From positions 1 to 64,000 of the forward strand of contig JAUIFJ010000004.1 in the NCBI GenBank assembly GCA_030429345.1: 64,000 nt of DNA, in the 5' to 3' direction. The position numbers and the translations under genes are program-made. The notes below the pieces were generated by a model, which had not been told where the DNA came from, did not search any database, and saw nothing but the letters and a program-made list of their open reading frames with translations. Positions 31,045-46,185 of this stretch are shown in pieces. This DNA comes from a bacterium (GTDB lineage Bacteria; CAIWAD01). The first letter of the stretch is position 1; each line of letters begins with the position of its first letter.

Positions 31045-31303
31045 CCGCCTGCGGCGGGATGGATTGAAATGGCTGCCGCATTCTGCGGCAGGTTTATGCA
31101 AGCACCGCTATGCGGTGCCTTGGTGTGCCTGCCGGGGTTGGTGTGTGGGGAACGAAAATGGGCGTGCGCCGGGGCGGCCGCAGGCCGCCCCTACCGGGGG
31201 TGTGTCATTGCCATGATCGGCGAACGCCCTGTCACGCGCCCATCGGGCGCGTGACACGACCACGTAGTGGTCGCTGCCCCCTGGCCGTCGCAGAATGCGA
31301 CGG
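31045..31303. repeat. Hairpin-array repeat, copy A
   Basis: Seven consecutive perfect hairpins, each with a 3-base loop: CCGCC (loop TGC), CTGCCGCA (TTC), GCACCGC (TAT), GGGGCGGCC (GCA), GTCACGCGCCC (ATC), CGACCAC (GTA) and CCGTCGCA (GAA). Non-hairpin spacers such as GGTTTATGCAAG, GTGTGTGGGG and GTGTGTCATTGCCATGATCGG are also shared with copy B. It carries no ORF with coding character and no T-run. Confidence 0.9.
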
Positions 31304-31989: not shown

Positions 31990-33003
31990 TTATTTCACAA
32001 GCACCATCGGACGAGTCTCCGAATGGTCCTCGGTTTCCAGGGTGTAGAAATAGGTGCCGCTGCTCAGGCCGTCGGCCTGGAAATCCACATCATGCTGCCC
32101 GCCGGCGGTCAGGCCGTTCAACAGGGTCCGCACGAGCTGGCCCTGGGCGTTGTATACGGACAGATTAGTGAAACCCGTCTCCGGCAGGGTGAAGCGGATT
32201 GTGGTGGACGGGTTGAAGGGATTGGGGTAGTTGTTCAGCAACTCGAAGTGGGTCGCCACTTCATTGGCGCTGGCGACATTGCCGGTTGAGTAGATGTTCC
32301 ACACTTCCTGGTCGGTCAGGGCGTGATCGAAGATCATGAACTCATCGAATACTGCATTTGCCGATGCATATGATGTTTGTGTGTAGTACCAACCAATTGT
32401 AGATGATGCTGATTCATAGGTTCCAATGAAGAAGCCGCCCCCATAATGATAACCACCAACGGCAGCGCCATCTACATAGAGTGTTGCATCCACCTCGTCG
32501 TGAAGAACGGCAGTTACCTGGTACCACCGATTGTACTGCAGAGCTTCATTGGATCTATAGATTCTATAGTTGTCCAGGTTAAATGACCCACCATTTGCAT
32601 ACATAATGACCAGTTCATTGTTATACAGAAAGAAGCGTATACCTGCCATTCCTCCCTGTCCAATTGAATAAGCATTGCATGAAGTAAAGATTTGCTCTTC
32701 CCCGAAAGTGCTGCCTGCATTGCTCGGATTACGCAGCCAAAGACTTATAGAACAAGGATAGGTCAAGGTGCTGTAAAAGTCTTCCACATATATGTAGTCA
32801 AAGTTGCTTGCAAGGTTTAGGGCTGACTCAGGGTTACCAGCATGATCCAAAGCAAAACTTATAGGACCGTTTTGCTCTATGCCATGATGCCCATTCCCAC
32901 TATAGTCCAGGAAATCCCCATCAAATGGATAGTACCCGATCAACTCGGCCTGGGCTGTTTGTATTGAAACGGATGCAGCAAGAAGAAGGAGCAAGGATTT
33001 CAT
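31990..33003 (-). CDS. Secreted LamG-domain protein with C-terminal sorting domain
   Basis: Exported 337-aa protein: signal peptide (residues 1-20), then a LamG/concanavalin-like jelly-roll (about 21-235: LIGYYPFDGDFLDYSGNGHHG, RWYQVTAVLHDEVDATLYVDG, FDEFMIFDHALTDQEV), and a sorting/FlgD-like domain (LLNNYPNPFNPSTTIRFTLPE). The LamG part has much lower GC than the genome while the sorting domain is GC-rich, as if a foreign domain had been joined to a native export tail. A carbohydrate or adhesion role is typical but unproven. The terminator at 31940-31969 serves it. Confidence 0.9.
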   Translation of the reverse strand: MKSLLLLLAASVSIQTAQAELIGYYPFDGDFLDYSGNGHHGIEQNGPISFALDHAGNPESALNLASNFDYIYVEDFYSTLTYPCSISLWLRNPSNAGSTFGEEQIFTSCNAYSIGQGGMAGIRFFLYNNELVIMYANGGSFNLDNYRIYRSNEALQYNRWYQVTAVLHDEVDATLYVDGAAVGGYHYGGGFFIGTYESASSTIGWYYTQTSYASANAVFDEFMIFDHALTDQEVWNIYSTGNVASANEVATHFELLNNYPNPFNPSTTIRFTLPETGFTNLSVYNAQGQLVRTLLNGLTAGGQHDVDFQADGLSSGTYFYTLETEDHSETRPMVLVK

Positions 33004-33231: not shown

Positions 33232-33360
33232 GGGGCGGCCGCAGGCCGCCCCTACCGGGATTGGCGTGCCCAAACCGGGAACCCCCCGTTCCGTGCCCAT
33301 CGGGCACGAAACACGACCACGTAGTGGTCGCCGCCCCCTGGCCGTCGCAGAATGCGACGG
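33232..33360. repeat. Hairpin-array repeat, copy D (partial)
   Basis: Keeps only the last four hairpins of the family: GGGGCGGCC (loop GCA), CGTGCCC (loop ATC), CGACCAC (GTA) and CCGTCGCA (GAA). The second differs from the GTCACGCGCCC stem of copies A-C by paired changes, so the stem is still perfect. Confidence 0.88.
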
Positions 33361-33478
33361 ACCGTAAAAACACACGCACTCGTCGCGATGGGATCCCCAA
33401 AGAGTGTCCAGCCTGCAGGACGTCCCGCGAATCCTTCGAGCCATGCCGCCGAATCAGCTTTTCTCTTCGCACGCCAAT

Positions 33479-33488
33479 CGTTATAACG
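33479..33488. promoter_or_regulatory. Palindrome upstream of higB, candidate HigA operator
   Basis: CGTTATAACG is a perfect 10-base palindrome seven bases before the higB start codon. Type II antitoxins usually bind such sites over their own promoter. Binding is inferred. Confidence 0.4.
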
Positions 33489-33494
33489 GGTGGC

Positions 33495-33788
33495 ATGATA
33501 GCCGACTTTCAAGGCAAGGGGACAGCCGATGTATTCGACGGCCTGGGTTCCAGGGCCGCGCGGCAGTGCTGTCCTGCCGATCTTTGGAAGACTACCCGGC
33601 GCAAACTGGACCAGCTGAACCGCGTCCTGGATGTCTTCGAGTTGTCGATTCCTCCCGGCAATCGGCTGGAGGCCTTGAAGGGCAAGCGACTGGGACAATA
33701 CAGCATTCGCATCAACGAGCAGTACCGCATCTGCTTTCGCTGGGAAGGAGAAGACGCCTATGCCGTCGAGATCACAGACTACCACTAG
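33495..33788 (+). CDS. higB: HigB-type (RelE superfamily) toxin
   Basis: A 97-aa RelE/HigB mRNA interferase homologue: KTTRRKLDQLNRVLDVFELSIPPGNRLEALKG followed by LGQYSIRINEQYRICFRWEGEDAYAVEITDYH, the family's C-terminal core. ATG 33495 follows GGG and a palindrome; longer in-frame extensions upstream run into repeat copy D and are unlikely. HigB toxins cleave mRNA on the ribosome when the antitoxin is lost. The antitoxin gene follows with a 29-base overlap, the toxin-first order typical of hig. Confidence 0.92.
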   Translation: MIADFQGKGTADVFDGLGSRAARQCCPADLWKTTRRKLDQLNRVLDVFELSIPPGNRLEALKGKRLGQYSIRINEQYRICFRWEGEDAYAVEITDYH

Positions 33789-34140
33789 CACGAGCCCTGC
33801 ACCGAAGCCGCGTCGCGGGGCGGGCAAGCTGGTGCAGCGTCGCCTGCCGACAAATCGGCCGCCAACTCATCCCGGAGAGATGCTGCTGGAGGAATTCCTG
33901 GTTCCCAGGGGGATCTCCCAGTCGGCCTTCGCCATCCAGCTGGGAGTATCCTTTCCGCGATTGAATGAGATCATTCGAGGCAAGCGCTCCGTGACCACGG
34001 ATACGGCCCTGCGCCTGGCACGCGTCCTGGGCATGCCTGCCGAATTCTGGCTCGGCCTGCAGCAGGACTGGGATTTGTGGCACGCGCTGCGCGATGAGAA
34101 GACGGACCGGATCATGGAACTGAGTCCCGTTTACGGGTAG
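33760..34140 (+). CDS. higA: HigA-type antitoxin (HTH, XRE family)
   Basis: Antitoxin and autoregulator of 126 aa. An N-terminal basic extension (about 30 residues, RSQTTTSTSPAPKPRRG) precedes the HigA helix-turn-helix: THPGEMLLEEFLVPRGISQSAFAIQLGV, RLNEIIRGKRSVTTDTALRLARVLGMPAEFWLGLQQDWDLW. ATG 33760 lies nine bases after GGAAGGAG within higB. The extension is longer than in most HigA proteins. Array copy B begins six bases after the stop. Confidence 0.93.
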   Translation: MPSRSQTTTSTSPAPKPRRGAGKLVQRRLPTNRPPTHPGEMLLEEFLVPRGISQSAFAIQLGVSFPRLNEIIRGKRSVTTDTALRLARVLGMPAEFWLGLQQDWDLWHALRDEKTDRIMELSPVYG

Positions 34141-34145
34141 GGTGT

Positions 34146-34404
34146 CCGCCTGCGGCGGGATTTATTGAAAAGGTCCGCGGCATTCTGCCGCGGCTTTATG
34201 CAGGCACCGCTACGCGGTGCCTTGGTGTACCTGCCGGTGTTGGTGTGTGGGGGACGAAAATGGGCGTGCGCCGGGGCGGCCGCAGGCCGCCCCTACCGGG
34301 GGTGTGTCATTGCCATGATCGGTGATTTACCGTCACGCGCCCATCGGGCGCGTGACACGACCACGTAGTGGTCGCTGCCCCCTGGCCGTCGCAGAATGCG
34401 ACGG
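34146..34404. repeat. Hairpin-array repeat, copy B
   Basis: Same seven-hairpin order and orientation as copy A. The second hairpin is CCGCGGCA (loop TTC) instead of CTGCCGCA, with matching changes on both sides, and the third has loop TAC instead of TAT. The others are identical to copy A. Copies A and B are direct repeats about 3.1 kb apart that enclose both toxin-antitoxin pairs and the LamG gene. Confidence 0.9.
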
Positions 34405-34440
34405 GCCCGAACAACTCCATGAAATTCTCCCCTGATGAGA

Positions 34441-36360
34441 TCAATCCGCCGTCAGGCGGCCGTATACGCGGGTCAGGGCCGGCACCAGGTCCTCCGGGTG
34501 CTGCAGGATATGCCAGGCGCCCGGCCCGAGCATTTCCGGCAGGTAGTGACGGGCCTGGCGGTCGACGGCGAGGGCGTGGGTGTGGACGCCATCACGTTTC
34601 GCTTCCCTCAGGGCCTGGCGCACATCGGCGATGCCGTGACGGCCTTCGTAGCGGTCATAGTCGTTGGGCTTGCCGTCGCTGATCAGCAGCAGGAGCTTGC
34701 GTCCCTCTTTCCGGGAGACCAGCTCGCGTGTCGCATGGCGCAGGGCCGGCCCGATGCGGGTGTAGCCCTGGGGTTTCAGCGCGCCGAGCCTCTGCGCGGC
34801 CTGGCGCCAGTCCTCGTGCCGCTCCGCGATCGACCAGACGCGGCAATGGGTGCGCGTCTTCGAGGCGAATGCCAGCACCTGGATGCTTTCCCCCAGCCGA
34901 CGACAGGTCTCCCCGAGCACGAAGACCGCCTCGCGGGACAGGTCGAGTACACGCTGTTCGCCCACGTAGCTGTCGCTGGAGAGGGACAGGTCGAGCAGGA
35001 CCGTGACCGCCACCTCGTGACGCAGCCGCGAACGACGGATGTATACTTTCTCGTCGGTCGACTCGCCCGCTCGGCGAAAGGCCAGCTCGTCGCAGAGGGC
35101 GGAGATGTCGATCTCCTCGCCGTCCATCTGCCGGTCCTGCCGCTCCAGCTTCTGGCGGTAGCGCAGCAGTTCGTGTTCCAGCCTACGGATCCGGCGGTCC
35201 TGCAGGCTTCGCTGGCGGGCGGCCCAGGAGGCATCGCCGGTCGGCCAGGGCTGCGGATAGACCCGGCACCAGTCCTTGCGGTAGCGGCGGCGCTTCCCGT
35301 CCCACTCGTCGTAGAGCAGCGCGGGTCCCTCCGGCTCTCCGGCGCTGATGTCGGGAGCCTCCATATCCAGGCGCAGTTCGGTCCGGTAGACCGACTGGGC
35401 CTCCTCCCCGCCGCGGATCACGGTGCGCAGGTCCACTTCCTCCAGCGCCTCCAGGTGCTCGTCGAGCTCGTCCTCGCCATCCGTCTCACGGGCGCCGCCC
35501 TTGTACTCCTCGGCGGTTTCCACCTTCTCAAAGGAATGGATCAGGACATTGTCCTCCTGCTCCTTGCGGTCGAGCTTGACCTGCTCGATGTGATCCTTGG
35601 GCGGCGCCTCGCGTTCCGTGCCGCTGGCCGTGCCCGGCGATTCCAGGTCCGGGTCGATGCCCAGCCCGGCATCCGTGATCAGCGGAGGCAGCACTTCTCC
35701 CCAGGCCTCCAGCGGTGGACTTGCGGATTCGCGAAAGAAAAGCGGGTCGGCGGGCAGGGCCAGGAGCTGTATACGCAGTTCCGCGTCCAGCCAGGGGGAT
35801 TCCCCCTGCAGGGCGCCCAGGCGGCAGCGCTCCAGCAGACGCAAGGCGGCGGAGGAGTCCTCCGGCAAAGTGCGGCCGCTCAGGCAGGCCGCTTCGGCGA
35901 GATCCAGCATCGGGCCAAAGGCCGGAAACTCCTCCAGGAGGATTCGGCGGGCGGCGGCTGTCACACGCAGGGAGGCCAGCAGCCACTCCGCCGGATGGGC
36001 CTCGGGCTCGGGCAGGTCGGCCCCTTCGCCCGGGAATCTTCGCAGGATGGCCGCCAGAGCGCACCGCGTCAGATAGAGCGCCAGGTTCTCTTCTGTTGAC
36101 TTGCCCAATGTCATACGCGCGGGCAGGAGCAGGGTGCCGCCCCTCAATCCTCCCGCGCCTTCGGCTTCCTCGACGCGCAGGGTGCGTCCAGCCAGAAGGG
36201 GAGCGATCACGCGCAGGCGATGGACGACCTCGGCAAGGGAGACCGCTTCCGGGTTCTCCGGCTCTTCTTCGGAAGATGAGGAGAACAGGCCTTGCCAGCC
36301 CCTTCGGAGCAGCCGGAAAAGACGTTCCTCCCAGTCGAAGTCGAAGGAAGGGCTCTTCAT
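34441..36360 (-). CDS. norD: NorD, von Willebrand A-domain protein for nitric oxide reductase activation
   Basis: Cytosolic 639-aa protein. The C-terminal 200 residues are a VWA domain with a MIDAS-type site (VTVLLDLSLSSDS, DxSxS form) and later GYTRIGPALRHAT and LLLISDGKPNDYDRYEG, typical of NorD. The N-terminal part is acidic with long linkers. NorD works with the AAA+ protein NorQ to insert non-haem iron in NorB. ATG 36360 overlaps the norQ stop by one base (TGATG), so the 19 upstream codons are excluded. Last gene of norCBQD. It contains a TGTCACACG 9-mer (35959-35967). Confidence 0.94.
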   Translation of the reverse strand: MKSPSFDFDWEERLFRLLRRGWQGLFSSSSEEEPENPEAVSLAEVVHRLRVIAPLLAGRTLRVEEAEGAGGLRGGTLLLPARMTLGKSTEENLALYLTRCALAAILRRFPGEGADLPEPEAHPAEWLLASLRVTAAARRILLEEFPAFGPMLDLAEAACLSGRTLPEDSSAALRLLERCRLGALQGESPWLDAELRIQLLALPADPLFFRESASPPLEAWGEVLPPLITDAGLGIDPDLESPGTASGTEREAPPKDHIEQVKLDRKEQEDNVLIHSFEKVETAEEYKGGARETDGEDELDEHLEALEEVDLRTVIRGGEEAQSVYRTELRLDMEAPDISAGEPEGPALLYDEWDGKRRRYRKDWCRVYPQPWPTGDASWAARQRSLQDRRIRRLEHELLRYRQKLERQDRQMDGEEIDISALCDELAFRRAGESTDEKVYIRRSRLRHEVAVTVLLDLSLSSDSYVGEQRVLDLSREAVFVLGETCRRLGESIQVLAFASKTRTHCRVWSIAERHEDWRQAAQRLGALKPQGYTRIGPALRHATRELVSRKEGRKLLLLISDGKPNDYDRYEGRHGIADVRQALREAKRDGVHTHALAVDRQARHYLPEMLGPGAWHILQHPEDLVPALTRVYGRLTAD

Positions 36361-37172
36361 CAGAAGGCCATTGCCACCAGATCCATCAGGCCCTGGTTGA
36401 TTTCCCGATCGTCGCACAAAGGTTCGACGATCGCCTGCCGGCAGGCCAGGCGAGGCGGCAGGCCGCCCTGGATCAGGCGGGCGGCGTTGACCAGCAGTCT
36501 CGTCGAAGCGCCCTCCGCCAGGCCGAATTCCTCCAGGTGGCGGAACTTTCCGCCGAGAGTAGCCAGTCGTTTCGCCGTCTCGGCGTCGATGCCGGTCTCG
36601 CCCTGCAGGATCTCGCGCTCCAGTCCGGGTTCCGGCCAGTCGAAAGCCAGGGAGACGAAGCGCTGTCGCGTCGAGGGCTTGAGCTCCTTCAGGCTCTGCG
36701 CGTAGCCCGGATTGCCGCTGACGACCAGCAGGAAGCCGGGTCCGGCCGCCAGCTCCTCGTTGTGCCGCTCGATGAAGAGGCGGCGCCTGTGATCCGTCAG
36801 GGAATGGATCACGACGACGACATCGCTGCGCGCCTCCATCACCTCGTCCAGGTAGAGAATCGCATCCTGCCGGACAGCCCGTGTGACAGGGCCATCCTGC
36901 CAGACGGTCTCGCCGCCGCGCAGCAGGTAGCGCCCCAGCAGGTCCGTCGCGGTCGTGTCGTCATGGCAGCTCACGGTGACCAGCGGCCGGCCCAGGCTCG
37001 CGGCCATGTACTCCACGAAGCGCGACTTGCCGCAGCCGGTCGGACCCTTGAGCAGCAGGGAGAGCCGATTCTCCCAGGCCGCGTGGAAGACTTCCACTTC
37101 GCGGCCGACCGGGCGGTAGAAGGGCGGGGCCTGTTCCTCGAAGGCGGCGAGCGTTCCGGCGGCTGAAGTCAT
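36360..37172 (-). CDS. norQ: NorQ, MoxR-type AAA+ ATPase
   Basis: ATPase of 270 aa that remodels the NO reductase together with NorD. Walker A is GPTGCGKS (from residue 43), Walker B AILYLDEVMEA, with sensor region LLVVSGNPGY and the arginine-containing PSTRQRFVSLAF segment. The length is that of NorQ/CbbQ. It overlaps norB by 4 bases (ATGA) and norD by 1 base, showing tight coupling. Contains a reverse TGTCACACG at 36880-36888. Confidence 0.95.
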   Translation of the reverse strand: MTSAAGTLAAFEEQAPPFYRPVGREVEVFHAAWENRLSLLLKGPTGCGKSRFVEYMAASLGRPLVTVSCHDDTTATDLLGRYLLRGGETVWQDGPVTRAVRQDAILYLDEVMEARSDVVVVIHSLTDHRRRLFIERHNEELAAGPGFLLVVSGNPGYAQSLKELKPSTRQRFVSLAFDWPEPGLEREILQGETGIDAETAKRLATLGGKFRHLEEFGLAEGASTRLLVNAARLIQGGLPPRLACRQAIVEPLCDDREINQGLMDLVAMAF

Positions 37173-38506
37173 CGGACAGCCTCCAGGGCCTCATCCCTGG
37201 GCAGGCCGTAGCGCGTGAAGTTCCAGATGTAGAGCAGGATGCCCGTGGTGAAGAGGCAGGCGGCGAGCACCAGGCCCAGGAAGTGCACTTCCAGGTTCTC
37301 CTGTACTACAAGGAAATCGATGCCCAGCATGCGCTCCAGGTACACCTGTGCCACGCCGGCGACGGCGAAGGCGGCAGTCATCGCCACCATGCCGATGTTG
37401 GCCGTCCAGAAGGCGATCACGGGAATGCGGCCGGTGAAGAGATTGCGCCCGGTCATCTGGGGCATGGCGTAGGCGATCAGGGCCAGGACGAGCATGGCGT
37501 AGGCGCCCCAGAAGGCCATGTGGCCATGCATGCCGACGATCAGCGTGCCGTGCGTGTAGATGTTGACCTGCGGCAGCGTGTGCGCGAAACCGAGGAAGCC
37601 CGCGCCGACGAAGCTCATGATCCCCGTGCCCACGGCCCAGGAGAGCGCGATGCGATTGGGATGCTTGCGCCCGCCCTTGTTGGCCAGGAAGACCGCCCAA
37701 AGCGCCATCGCCAGGAAGGCGAGAGGCTCCAGAGCGGAGAAGAGGCCGCCGACCCAGAGCCAGTATTCGGGAGCACCCATGTAATAGTAGTGGTGTCCGG
37801 TGCCGAGAATGCCGCTGAGAAAAGTCAGGCCGACGATCACGTAGAGCCATTTCTCGATCACCTCGCGGTCGATGCCGGTGAGCTTGATCAGCAGGTAGGC
37901 CAGGATCGAACCCATGATGAGTTCCCAGACGCCCTCGACCCACAGGTGCACGACCCACCAGCGGAAGTAGCTGTCGAAGACATGGTTCTGGAAGGTCCAC
38001 ATGCCCGGCAGGTAGAGCAGGGCCGCCGAGAGCAGGCCGCCGAAGAGCACCAGGCCGGTGGTCGTGAAACGCCGTCCGCGCCAGACCGTGACACCGATGT
38101 TGAAGATGAAGGCCAGCACATTGACCACGACCAGGTAGTCGAGGGGGCGCGGGATCTCAAGGAACTTCCGCCCTTCCCACCAGTTGAAATGGAAGCCCAC
38201 GAGGGCAACGAGCGAGACGAGAACCAGCGACCCCCATTGGATCACGGCCAGCTTCACGCTGTATAGTTCGCGCTCGGCCTCCTCCGGGAGAATGTAGTAG
38301 GCCGCCCCCATGAAGCCGGCCAGCAGCCAGACGACGAGCAGATTGGTGTGCGTCGCCCGTGCGACATTGAAGGGAATCCAGTCGTGGAGGCCGTCGAGGC
38401 CCATGCGGGCAAAGCCCATGATGAAGCCGTATACCAGCTGCAGGACGAAGAGCGCCATGCAGGTGGCGAAGAAGAGATAAGCGACTTTCTGGGATTTGTA
38501 CTTCAT
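37169..38506 (-). CDS. norB: Nitric oxide reductase large subunit NorB (cNOR)
   Basis: Catalytic haem b/b3-FeB subunit, reducing two NO to N2O in the inner membrane. The 445-aa, 12-helix protein has the haem-ligand His53 (ARATHTNLLVVW), HLWVEGVWE (FeB His and Glu), GHHYYYMG, the ALEPLAF glutamate, and HGTLIVGMHGHMAFWG with the two histidines for haems b and b3. There is no fused quinol-oxidising domain and NorC is next door, so it is the cytochrome c-linked type. Translational overlap with norQ. Confidence 0.96.
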   Translation of the reverse strand: MKYKSQKVAYLFFATCMALFVLQLVYGFIMGFARMGLDGLHDWIPFNVARATHTNLLVVWLLAGFMGAAYYILPEEAERELYSVKLAVIQWGSLVLVSLVALVGFHFNWWEGRKFLEIPRPLDYLVVVNVLAFIFNIGVTVWRGRRFTTTGLVLFGGLLSAALLYLPGMWTFQNHVFDSYFRWWVVHLWVEGVWELIMGSILAYLLIKLTGIDREVIEKWLYVIVGLTFLSGILGTGHHYYYMGAPEYWLWVGGLFSALEPLAFLAMALWAVFLANKGGRKHPNRIALSWAVGTGIMSFVGAGFLGFAHTLPQVNIYTHGTLIVGMHGHMAFWGAYAMLVLALIAYAMPQMTGRNLFTGRIPVIAFWTANIGMVAMTAAFAVAGVAQVYLERMLGIDFLVVQENLEVHFLGLVLAACLFTTGILLYIWNFTRYGLPRDEALEAVR

Positions 38507-38510
38507 GCTG

Positions 38511-38969
38511 CTACTCCTTCACGCTCGCTTGGCCGCTGTCCTTTATCCACTCCCGCAAGGGCGGATCCTTGGGGAAGCCGTTGGTGTCGATTCCCTGGAC
38601 CCAGCGGAACCAGGCGATCAGCCCGTCGATCTCCTCGTCGGTGAAATCGTAGGCCACCATCTTGCGGCGACCGGGGTAGAAGGCCTGGGGATTGCGGATG
38701 AAGGCGCGGATCCACTCGGGATGCTTGCGGTCGAGCACATTCGTCAGTTCGGGGGCGTAATACGCTCCTTCTCCGAGAATCGTATGACACCCCATGCAGT
38801 TGTTCTCGTCCCACAGTTTCCGTCCGAGCAGCACCTGCTCGTCCATGGCGGCCATATGGGTCCGCGCCGGAGTCTGCCGGATCGTGTCGAGGGTCAGCCA
38901 GAGAAAGATCAGGCTGAAGAGGATCGTGCCTCCCAGGAAGAAGAGGCGGGCCTGGGATTTGGAAAGCAT
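38511..38969 (-). CDS. norC: Nitric oxide reductase cytochrome c subunit NorC
   Basis: Membrane-anchored monohaem cytochrome c, 152 aa, that passes electrons to NorB. One N-terminal helix (RLFFLGGTILFSLIFLWLTL) is followed by the haem site CMGCH in DENNCMGCHTILGEGAYYAPE and a Met ligand in GRRKMVAYDF. AGGAG lies eight bases before the ATG. It is the first gene of norCBQD; the divergent Rrf2 regulator and two dyads lie upstream. Confidence 0.96.
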   Translation of the reverse strand: MLSKSQARLFFLGGTILFSLIFLWLTLDTIRQTPARTHMAAMDEQVLLGRKLWDENNCMGCHTILGEGAYYAPELTNVLDRKHPEWIRAFIRNPQAFYPGRRKMVAYDFTDEEIDGLIAWFRWVQGIDTNGFPKDPPLREWIKDSGQASVKE

Positions 38970-39036: not shown

Positions 39037-39070
39037 GATCAATAGTGGATGTTTCTATCCAGAATTGATC
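39037..39070. promoter_or_regulatory. Operator dyad 1 in the nor/rrf2 divergent region
   Basis: Two 14-base arms around GTTTCT (39051-39056) match as an inverted repeat at 12 of 14 positions: GATCAATAGTGGAT on the left; the right arm reads GATCAATTCTGGAT on the other strand. It contains the core TGGAT-N6-ATCCA, the same form as dyad 2. The outer ATCAA/TTGAT could alternatively be FNR/DNR half-sites. It lies about 70 bases upstream of norC. Confidence 0.7.
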
Positions 39071-39084
39071 CCGGAGTCTATTAA

Positions 39085-39104
39085 ATTGGACTAGAATGTC
39101 CAAT
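39085..39104. promoter_or_regulatory. Operator dyad 2 next to the Rrf2 start
   Basis: ATTGGAC, six bases (TAGAAT), then GTCCAAT: a perfect 7-base inverted repeat ending just before the AGGAG of the rrf2 gene. TAGAAT itself could be the -10 element. The core TGGAC-N6-GTCCA matches dyad 1; centres are 41 bases apart, about four helical turns. Autorepression is the natural reading. Confidence 0.7.
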
Positions 39105-39114
39105 AGGAGTGCCC

Positions 39115-39537
39115 ATGATTTCCAATACGGCGGAGTATGCCCTGCGGCTGGTCGTCCGTCTCGCCGAAGAGCCTGGCCAGGCCCTGCCCGCGCAGGAGGT
39201 GGCCCGCGAGATCCAGGTGCCGGCCCAATACCTCTACAAGATCATCCAGGGGCTGAGCCGGGTCGGCCTGCTGCGGTCGCGCCGGGGGGCCGGAGGAGGA
39301 GTGTCGCTGCAAAAGACTCCGGCCGAGATCAGCCTCTACGAGATCGTCACCGCCGTCTCGCCCATCAAGCGGATTCACAGCTGTCCGTTGAACCTGCCGG
39401 AACACGAGAACGAACTTTGCAGCCTGCACGCGACCCTGGACGGGGCCGCCGCACAGGCTGAAGGCTGTTTTCGAAGAACGAGTCTGCAGGACCTGCTGGA
39501 CCAATCCGGCAAGAAGATGTTCGGAGAAGGCGGATGA
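39115..39537 (+). CDS. Rrf2-family (NsrR-like) transcriptional regulator
   Basis: A 140-aa winged-helix regulator: MISNTAEYALRLVVRLAE, recognition region AQEVAREIQVPAQYLYKIIQGLSRVGLL, wing SRRGAGGGVSL. Three cysteines, C90, C102 and C118, could hold an iron-sulfur cluster, but their spacing (11 and 15 residues between) is wider than in IscR/NsrR (5 and 5-6). Position opposite norCBQD suggests it senses NO and represses nor. ATG 39115 follows AGGAG; an upstream GTG at 39109 overlaps that site. Confidence 0.93.
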   Translation: MISNTAEYALRLVVRLAEEPGQALPAQEVAREIQVPAQYLYKIIQGLSRVGLLRSRRGAGGGVSLQKTPAEISLYEIVTAVSPIKRIHSCPLNLPEHENELCSLHATLDGAAAQAEGCFRRTSLQDLLDQSGKKMFGEGG

Positions 39538-39774
39538 TCCCGCCTGCGGCGGGATGGATGGAAAGGATCTGCCGCATTCTGCGGCAGGTTTATGCAAGCA
39601 CCGCTACGCGGTGCCTTGGTGTGCGTTCCGGTGTTGGCGGGTTGAAACGAGGTCGGGCGTGCGCCGGGGCGGGGTGGCATGACCACAACGGCAAACCCCC
39701 CGTCACGCGCCCAACGGGCGCGTGACACGACCACGTAGTGGTCGCTGCCCCATAGCCGTCGCAGAATGCGACGG
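39537..39774. repeat. Hairpin-array repeat, copy C
   Basis: Begins at the last base of the rrf2 stop codon. Hairpins: ATCCCGCC (loop TGC), CTGCCGCA (TTC), GCACCGC (TAC), the fourth hairpin lost by deletion, GTCACGCGCCC (loop AAC instead of ATC), CGACCAC (GTA), CCGTCGCA (GAA). Order and orientation are as in copies A and B. Confidence 0.9.
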
Positions 39775-39796
39775 ACCCTGATCAAATCGAATACTC

Positions 39797-40582
39797 CTAC
39801 GACGACGCCGAAGCATAGGCCCGCAGCGCTCTCTTCCAGAATAGCGTCATCCCGACGAAAAGCAGCGCCGTCACCCCCAGGGCGTGCAGCAGGAGCTCCG
39901 GCTTCAGGCCTTCGAAGAGCACGCGGGCCGGCAGGCTCGATATGAGACTGAAGGGAAGGATCGTCAGCAGGGTCCGTCTCACATAACCCTTGAAGATGCG
40001 GTCCGGCCGTTCGCTGTAGCGCGTCATGGCGAAGAAGATGTCCCCCAGGCCTCGGTTGCTGTGCAGCCAGAAGACGGGAATCAGGAAGGCGATGTGCATC
40101 ACGTAGTACAGGATCGTCCCGTTGAGCAGCAGCAGCAGGTAGGTGCCGATGCGCAGGCCGCCAAGGGCGTCCGGGTAGCTGAGCAGCGCCCAGGCCATCA
40201 GGCCCGAGGCGACCAGGATGTTGACGAAGCTGTTCGCGGCAAAGTCGCGCAGGCTCAGGAAGAAGAGCGAACTGACCGGCCGCACCAGGTAGTAGTCCAG
40301 GTCGCCCTTGTTGACGAGGATCGGCAGCCACCACATGTTGTTGGCGAAGACGGTCATGTGCAGGGCGTCGATCAGGAAGAAACCGCAAATGAAGACCAGC
40401 ACCTGCGGAAACTCCCAGCCCCCGAGCACGGAGGTATGGTTGTAGAGCACGCTGAAGAAGATGATCTGTACCACATAGAAGACCACATCCATCACGATGC
40501 GGAACCAGAAGTCCAGGCGGAACTCCATCGCCCGGCTGAAGGAGAAGCGCAGGAAGTAGAGGTAGAGGCGAAGGTATCTCAT
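39797..40582 (-). CDS. ABC-2 family exporter permease
   Basis: Integral membrane protein of 261 aa with six helices, of the ABC2_membrane_6 (DUF990) type: RLDFWFRIVMDVVFYVVQIIFFSVLY, LVFICGFFLIDALHMTVFANNMWWLP, KGDLDYYLVRPVSSLFFLS. The DxxLxRP motif in that last segment is common to the family. It pairs with the second permease upstream and the ATPase to form an exporter of unknown substrate. The 148-base gap to the other permease holds an inverted-repeat element, so the operon looks interrupted by an insertion. Confidence 0.88.
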   Translation of the reverse strand: MRYLRLYLYFLRFSFSRAMEFRLDFWFRIVMDVVFYVVQIIFFSVLYNHTSVLGGWEFPQVLVFICGFFLIDALHMTVFANNMWWLPILVNKGDLDYYLVRPVSSLFFLSLRDFAANSFVNILVASGLMAWALLSYPDALGGLRIGTYLLLLLNGTILYYVMHIAFLIPVFWLHSNRGLGDIFFAMTRYSERPDRIFKGYVRRTLLTILPFSLISSLPARVLFEGLKPELLLHALGVTALLFVGMTLFWKRALRAYASASS

Positions 40583-45513: not shown

Positions 45514-46185
45514 ATGGCTACGATTGCGGAGCAGGATTACCTGAAGGCCATCTACATGCTGACTCGCGAAGGGCAGGCTGCCAGTACTTCCGGCATTGCG
45601 GAATACCTGGGTTTGCGGGCCGCTTCGGTCAGCGGCATGCTGTCGCGGCTGGCCTCCCGCCCCTCGGCGCCGGTGCACTATGAGAAACACGCGGGCGCCC
45701 GCCTGAGCGCTGCCGGCCGCACACGGGCGCTGCAGCTGCTGCGCAAGCATCGCCTGATCGAGACCTGGCTCTGCCGCGAACTCGGCTACGGCTGGGAGGA
45801 AGTCCACGAGGAAGCGGATCATCTGGAACACAGCATGTCGGACCGCCTGATCGAGCGCCTGGCGCGCCGGTTGGGCGATCCCGAATACGATCCGCACGGG
45901 GACCCGATTCCCCGCGCAAACGGCAGCCTGCCGGAGGCGGGAGGCATTTGCGTGCTGGATCTGGAGGAAGGCCGGCGGGCCACTGTGCTGAGAGTGCGCG
46001 ACGGGGAACCGGAGCTCCTCGTCTACCTGGGCAACCTGGGGATCCGCCCGGAAAAGGAAGTGGTCCTGCTGGAACTCGCGCCCTTCAACGGGCCGGCCCG
46101 TCTGGAACTTGGCGGTGAGACGGCCTCGATCGGCCGGGAAGCGGCGGCGGCGATCACCGTGCGCCCGCAGGAGGAAAGGGAATGA
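45514..46185 (+). CDS. DtxR/MntR-family metal-dependent regulator
   Basis: A 223-aa repressor of the DtxR family: N-terminal winged helix (EQDYLKAIYMLTREGQAASTSGIAEYLGLRAASVSGMLSRL), dimer/metal domain with ELGYGWEEVHEEADHLEHSMSD, and a C-terminal FeoA/SH3-like domain (about 150-220). The Glu/His residues of the metal site are present (H98, E99, E102, H103 region). It is the first gene of the metal importer operon and overlaps the binding-protein gene by 4 bases (ATGA), so it very probably represses this operon with Mn2+ or Fe2+ bound. GAACT and AGTTC flank 45498-45505 just before the start, a weak operator candidate. Confidence 0.92.
   Translation: MATIAEQDYLKAIYMLTREGQAASTSGIAEYLGLRAASVSGMLSRLASRPSAPVHYEKHAGARLSAAGRTRALQLLRKHRLIETWLCRELGYGWEEVHEEADHLEHSMSDRLIERLARRLGDPEYDPHGDPIPRANGSLPEAGGICVLDLEEGRRATVLRVRDGEPELLVYLGNLGIRPEKEVVLLELAPFNGPARLELGGETASIGREAAAAITVRPQEERE

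Follow-up and report, generated by a model that had tools for sequence, protein, structure and literature searches.

An operon for nitric oxide (NO) reductase and a gene for an Rrf2-type regulator are transcribed away from each other in the window, by which we mean the whole 64-kb stretch of DNA analysed, and the question raised by this locus is what controls the two. An earlier note on this DNA had described two inverted repeats between them and read these as the operators of one regulator controlling both NO reductase and itself. The features concerned are the following, the two dyads being candidate operators.

34441–36417, minus strand: norD, encoding a VWA-domain protein (VWA domain)
36360–37172, minus strand: norQ, AAA ATPase of the CbbQ/NirQ/NorQ type (CbbQ_C domain)
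37169–38506, minus strand: norB, catalytic subunit of cytochrome-c NO reductase (match to cNOR NorB 3o0r, E 6.5e-117)
38511–38969, minus strand: norC, cytochrome c subunit of NO reductase (gene call; start at 38969)
39037–39070, no strand: dyad 1, an inverted repeat with arms 39037–39050 and 39057–39070 and core TGGATGTTTCTATCCA at 39046–39061 (15.0 bits for the family motif)
39075–39102, minus strand: putative norC promoter TGGACA-N16-TAGACT (consensus match only)
39085–39104, no strand: dyad 2, with arms 39085–39091 and 39098–39104 and core TGGACTAGAATGTCCA at 39087–39102 (12.8 bits for the family motif)
39115–39537, plus strand: rrf2 regulator gene (P0001), 140 amino acids, ATG at 39115 (PF02082 match, E 1.3e-28)

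What the note had reported of the dyads was borne out on the sequence: both match TGGAY-N6-RTCCA with six-base centres, and these centres, at 39053.5 and 39094.5, are 41 bp apart. Both also lie, as described, between norCBQD and the divergent rrf2 gene, in the 145-bp intergenic gap bounded by the norC start at 38969 on the minus strand and the rrf2 ATG at 39115 on the plus strand. The arms of dyad 1 are 86% complementary around a 6-nt centre, and those of dyad 2 (ATTGGAC/GTCCAAT) are complementary over all 7 bp, again around a 6-nt centre. Directly downstream of dyad 2 stands AGGAG (39105–39109), read from the sequence as the rrf2 ribosome-binding site, and on the other strand the −35 hexamer of the putative norC promoter falls within the same dyad; one such promoter-like match was found where shuffles gave 0.1.

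No further exact copy of TGGAY-N6-RTCCA occurs in the 64-kb window. Across the 4.24-Mb genome the bare core is found 49 times, against 34 for a reversed-pattern control, or about 0.7 per 64 kb. At that density two cores less than 60 bp apart within one 145-bp gap are far beyond chance, although the same abundance makes it impossible to predict a regulon from the core alone. The 20-bp form ATTGGAY-N6-RTCCAAT, with at most one mismatch, is found at three places in the genome and nowhere in the control: at dyad 2, in the nirK promoter and at one site within an ORF. The nirK site, a third matching dyad in the genome (C64:83200–83219, ATTGGATGTTTGCATCCAAT), stands some 130 bp 5′ of a gene which passes the NCBIfam copper nitrite reductase equivalog cut-off (360 vs 296 bits) and whose product carries a cytochrome c domain at its C-terminus. 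Searches of same-family genomes for NirK gave nothing beyond a weak partial match in G002. The ric gene of the source genome has no site upstream; hcp was not found in this genome, though control genomes gave matches, and a search for nnrS matched neither the source genome nor the control genomes. Three candidate sites in the genome were rejected as operators, C79:54021 (high-scoring) because it lies within mutL, C57:7967 (high-scoring) because it lies in an apparent reading frame and C52:9891 because it lies within a repeat-protein ORF.

The surroundings of the locus contain an intergenic repeat of about 260 bp in four copies within 9 kb (31046–31303, 33262–33363, 34147–34417 and 39541–39800), which are 75–84% identical and share a conserved palindrome, GACCACGTAGTGGTC. 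Also present in the window are a gene pair for a HigB-like toxin (PF05015) and a helix-turn-helix antitoxin (33456–34137), a secreted lectin-like protein with a C-terminal Por-secretion-type sorting domain (31993–33003), and a DtxR/MntR-type iron-dependent repressor with a FeoA domain at its C-terminus (45514–46182).

Homologues of the regulator were collected by a scan of GTDB species genomes, which gave 80 loci in Planctomycetota, Armatimonadota/Chthonomonadia, Acidobacteriota, Obscuribacterales/Melainabacteria and others. Given 70 non-redundant regions upstream of rrf2, drawn from several phyla, unsupervised palindromic EM arrived at TGGAY-VTNNAB-RTCCA, with a likelihood score (LL) of 281 compared with 37–42 in shuffles. 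Trained on Planctomycetota, the motif scored above the 99th percentile for random sequence at 20 of the 36 remaining loci, and in the window its first- and second-ranked sites upstream of rrf2 were the two dyads; trained on the other phyla, it passed that percentile at 17 of 34 Planctomycetota loci. At a threshold of at least 12 bits, 53 of 84 subfamily upstream regions have a site, leaving about a third without one, whereas the figure is 1 of 25 for other Rrf2 genes and 1.1% for random 300-mers. Judged from these upstream regions, the motif is a property of the regulator's whole subfamily. The conservation on which the earlier note had staked its reading was also seen next to nor itself: the only same-family genome found to have norB (G002) has the divergent rrf2 gene and the site.

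The spacing of the two dyads is a different matter. The note had placed them about four helical turns apart on the same face of the DNA, and for 41 bp the arithmetic is right. A second site of at least 9 bits is present in 13 of the 70 loci (about 3 expected), but at spacings of 34–142 bp and with a phase coherence R of 0.29 across these paired loci. There is thus no fixed geometry; helical phasing of paired sites was rejected, and the same-face arrangement is not conserved.

This distribution also bears on whether the dyads might serve another regulator, of the Crp/Fnr or two-component type, controlling both nor and rrf2. Binding of the Rrf2 protein to the dyads is a prediction, and dyad 1 has additional outer arms, GATCAAT/ATTGATC, which are a real inverted repeat. 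Read as ATCAA...TTGAT, however, these arms are the reverse of the FNR box, the consensus of which has the opposite orientation, and none were seen in the relatives inspected. Since the motif tracks the rrf2 subfamily from phylum to phylum and hardly occurs before other Rrf2 genes, we regard control by such a regulator as very improbable. Very probably, the divergent rrf2 gene encodes the protein that binds both dyads, and the proposal of one regulator for nor and itself is supported by this tracking and by the site before nirK. The simplest reading of the sequence is that an autoregulated, NsrR-like NO-response regulator controls nor and its own gene.

The gene neighbourhoods of the subfamily are informative about the likely signal. 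A tblastn search, its references identified through family models, recognised at least one NO gene at 43 of the 83 loci, and some of its weaker matches may be wrong; by gene, the counts are 30 ric/ytfE-like, 25 norB/norZ, 6 nnrS-like, 3 nirK and 3 norC. The norB/norZ genes are mostly divergent from rrf2, and several NO genes at homologue loci have a site of their own: in Obscuribacterales strong sites precede the ric start codons by about 12–30 bp, and there is a strong site near ric at L080. These observations can be set against the view that the dyads are indeed bound by the Rrf2 protein, but that its signal is not NO (instead redox state as in RsrR, iron or Fe-S status as in IscR/RirA, or thiols), with nor as one part of a broader redox regulon. 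About half of the loci have no NO gene found nearby, as this view would allow, but the neighbours that were recognised make up the classic NO set of norZ, ric, nnrS and nirK.

Two of the homologue loci, L081 and L085, from MAGs labelled Cloacimonadota and UBP17, hold a compact NO island in which norCBQD is divergent from a co-directional group of rrf2, a hemerythrin gene (ric-like) and nirK. At four others (L110, L115, L116 and L052) the neighbour of rrf2 is a radical-SAM gene, by inspection haem-maturation-like, and in three of the four the two genes are divergent.

Of 11 qNOR genes with no linkage to the original rrf2 locus, only two have a site that reaches 12 bits. Two of the 11 adjoin an rrf2 paralogue whose dyads are of a variant type: at L159 and L160 the paralogue, with the protein pattern CPLGL-SH-SLCPLH, lies next to a divergent norZ and has two dyads of the CTRCAY-RTCAAG-RTGYAG type (at L159 in the form CTGCACGTCAAGGTGTAG). 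The centre of these dyads is identical to that of the TGGAY dyads and the half-site is different, which suggests that operators have diverged between rrf2 paralogues. In part, such divergence would explain the weak result for the unlinked norZ genes.

The regulator passes the Rrf2 superfamily profiles PF02082 (100 bits, cut-off 30) and TIGR00738 (104 bits, cut-off 73.3). Its AlphaFold model (pLDDT 92) predicts the Rrf2 fold, with a winged helix and a dimerisation helix, and matches RsrR, IscR, CymR and NsrR at E <0.001, RsrR being closest. The subfamily groups together, with weak support (0.57), in a tree that includes 25 Rrf2 proteins from outside it. An alignment of 84 homologues has E7, R11, C90, P91, H97, C102 and H105 invariant; E7 was demanded by the scan pattern, so its invariance is partly selected, and the other six lay outside the pattern. 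The earlier note had counted three cysteines (C90, C102 and C118) and considered their spacing wider than in IscR and NsrR. This does not hold, as C118 is not conserved and the 12 residues from C90 to C102 are exactly those from C92 to C104 in IscR and from C93 to C105 in ScNsrR. What is conserved is a ligand-like pattern, C-X6-H-X4-C-X2-H, of which L108, L159 and L160 have variants one residue shorter. It is likely, judging from the alignment, that H97, one position off, stands in for the lacking middle cysteine.

Comparison with the three best-matching known regulators places the subfamily beside each and within none. NsrR shares with it the Rrf2 fold, a regulon of nor, nirK, ric/ytfE and nnrS, sites before its own gene, a distance of 12 between first and third cysteine (C93–C105 in ScNsrR) and an acidic residue at position 7 or 8 followed four residues on by arginine, so that the ScNsrR cluster ligand Asp8 and its salt-bridge partner Arg12 correspond to E7 and R11 (PMC5411485). 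It differs in having three ligand cysteines, where the subfamily has C90 and C102 only, with the invariant H97 close to where the middle one would be and Glu replacing Asp, and in its operator, gATGyAT-N5-ATrCATc as against TGGAY-N6-RTCCA; a comparative study from 2005 on the regulation of NO genes, which described this operator, assigned NsrR to proteobacteria, bacilli and streptomycetes (PMC1274295). The NCBIfam NsrR equivalog PRK11014 gives 43.3 bits against a cut-off of 182. In E. coli IscR, residues C92, C104 and H107 are the counterparts of C90, C102 and H105 and are spaced exactly as these are, but the C-X5-C-X5-C-X2-H ligand set is absent from the subfamily (C98 is missing, and H97 is displaced by one position), the genes under IscR control are those for Fe-S assembly, and the IscR equivalog gives 39 bits against a cut-off of 208.

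RsrR of Streptomyces venezuelae is the best PDB match by both structure and sequence, which is the other point in favour of a signal different from NO. Its [2Fe-2S] ligands are two cysteines, a glutamate and a histidine (Glu8, His12, Cys90 and Cys110, according to passages of PMC9218516); the subfamily likewise has two cysteines plus Glu and His, with Glu at position 7 or 8 and C90 aligning directly. RsrR is a redox sensor, however, with its cysteines 20 residues apart rather than 12, and its ligand His12 is replaced in all 84 homologues by Arg11, which matches Arg12 of NsrR. On balance a non-NO signal seems unlikely. The subfamily falls within Rrf2 and outside the tested definitions of NsrR, IscR and RsrR. 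The passages seen of two recent family-wide Rrf2 surveys (PMC9973013, PMC9218516) do not describe it, and no description was found in open-access papers. It is apparently a widespread, undescribed branch of the Rrf2 family that lies beside NO genes in many little-studied phyla.

The unusual ligand set, with no middle cysteine and Glu for Asp8, means that cluster binding could have been lost. C90, H97, C102 and H105 might then bind zinc or haem, or form a thiol switch. Only two cysteines are conserved and a set of two Cys and two His fits zinc; the Cys-Pro dipeptide C90-P91 is invariant in 84 of 84 homologues; and some known Rrf2 members have two cysteines and no cluster (PMC9218516). Against this, the residues stand at the cluster positions of IscR and NsrR with equal first-to-third spacing, and E7 and R11 match Asp8 and Arg12 of NsrR. 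A cluster-free protein is thus a doubtful proposition, if somewhat less so than a signal other than NO.

We put at roughly 0.7 the probability that the dyads are operators of the divergent rrf2 product, acting as a winged-helix dimer of an Rrf2 subfamily that works in the manner of NsrR. We infer direct binding, repression rather than activation, a cluster with its ligands, and NO as the signal. The dimer would hold a cluster through C90, C102 and H97 and/or H105, possibly with E7 of the partner subunit, and in that state would bind the TGGAY-N6-RTCCA dyads. On dyad 2 it would cover the −35 region of the norC promoter and lie just 5′ of the rrf2 ribosome-binding site, and on dyad 1 its position would be close to the start point of norC or slightly beyond it, so that transcription towards both nor and rrf2 would be repressed. 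Attack of NO on the cluster would lower DNA binding, norCBQD, nirK and rrf2 would be switched on, and NO would be reduced.

A wider proposal is more tentative, namely that this is an NO-sensing Rrf2 subfamily with a new mode of ligation, in which two Cys and either one or two His are joined by a Glu from the partner subunit, that it provides an NO regulator where none is known (Planctomycetota, Armatimonadota, Melainabacteria/Obscuribacterales and some Acidobacteriota), and that the regulons of its paralogues are separated by the half-site, TGGAY as opposed to TGCAY/TACAY, around a shared GTCAAG-type centre. If the altered ligand set does hold a cluster, it would offer a natural way of testing which ligands give Rrf2 clusters their sensitivity to NO. 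Seemingly little is known of how the enzymes that handle NO and produce N2O are controlled in Planctomycetota, Armatimonadota, Obscuribacterales and similar phyla, and a defined subfamily together with a defined operator would make NO regulons predictable across them.
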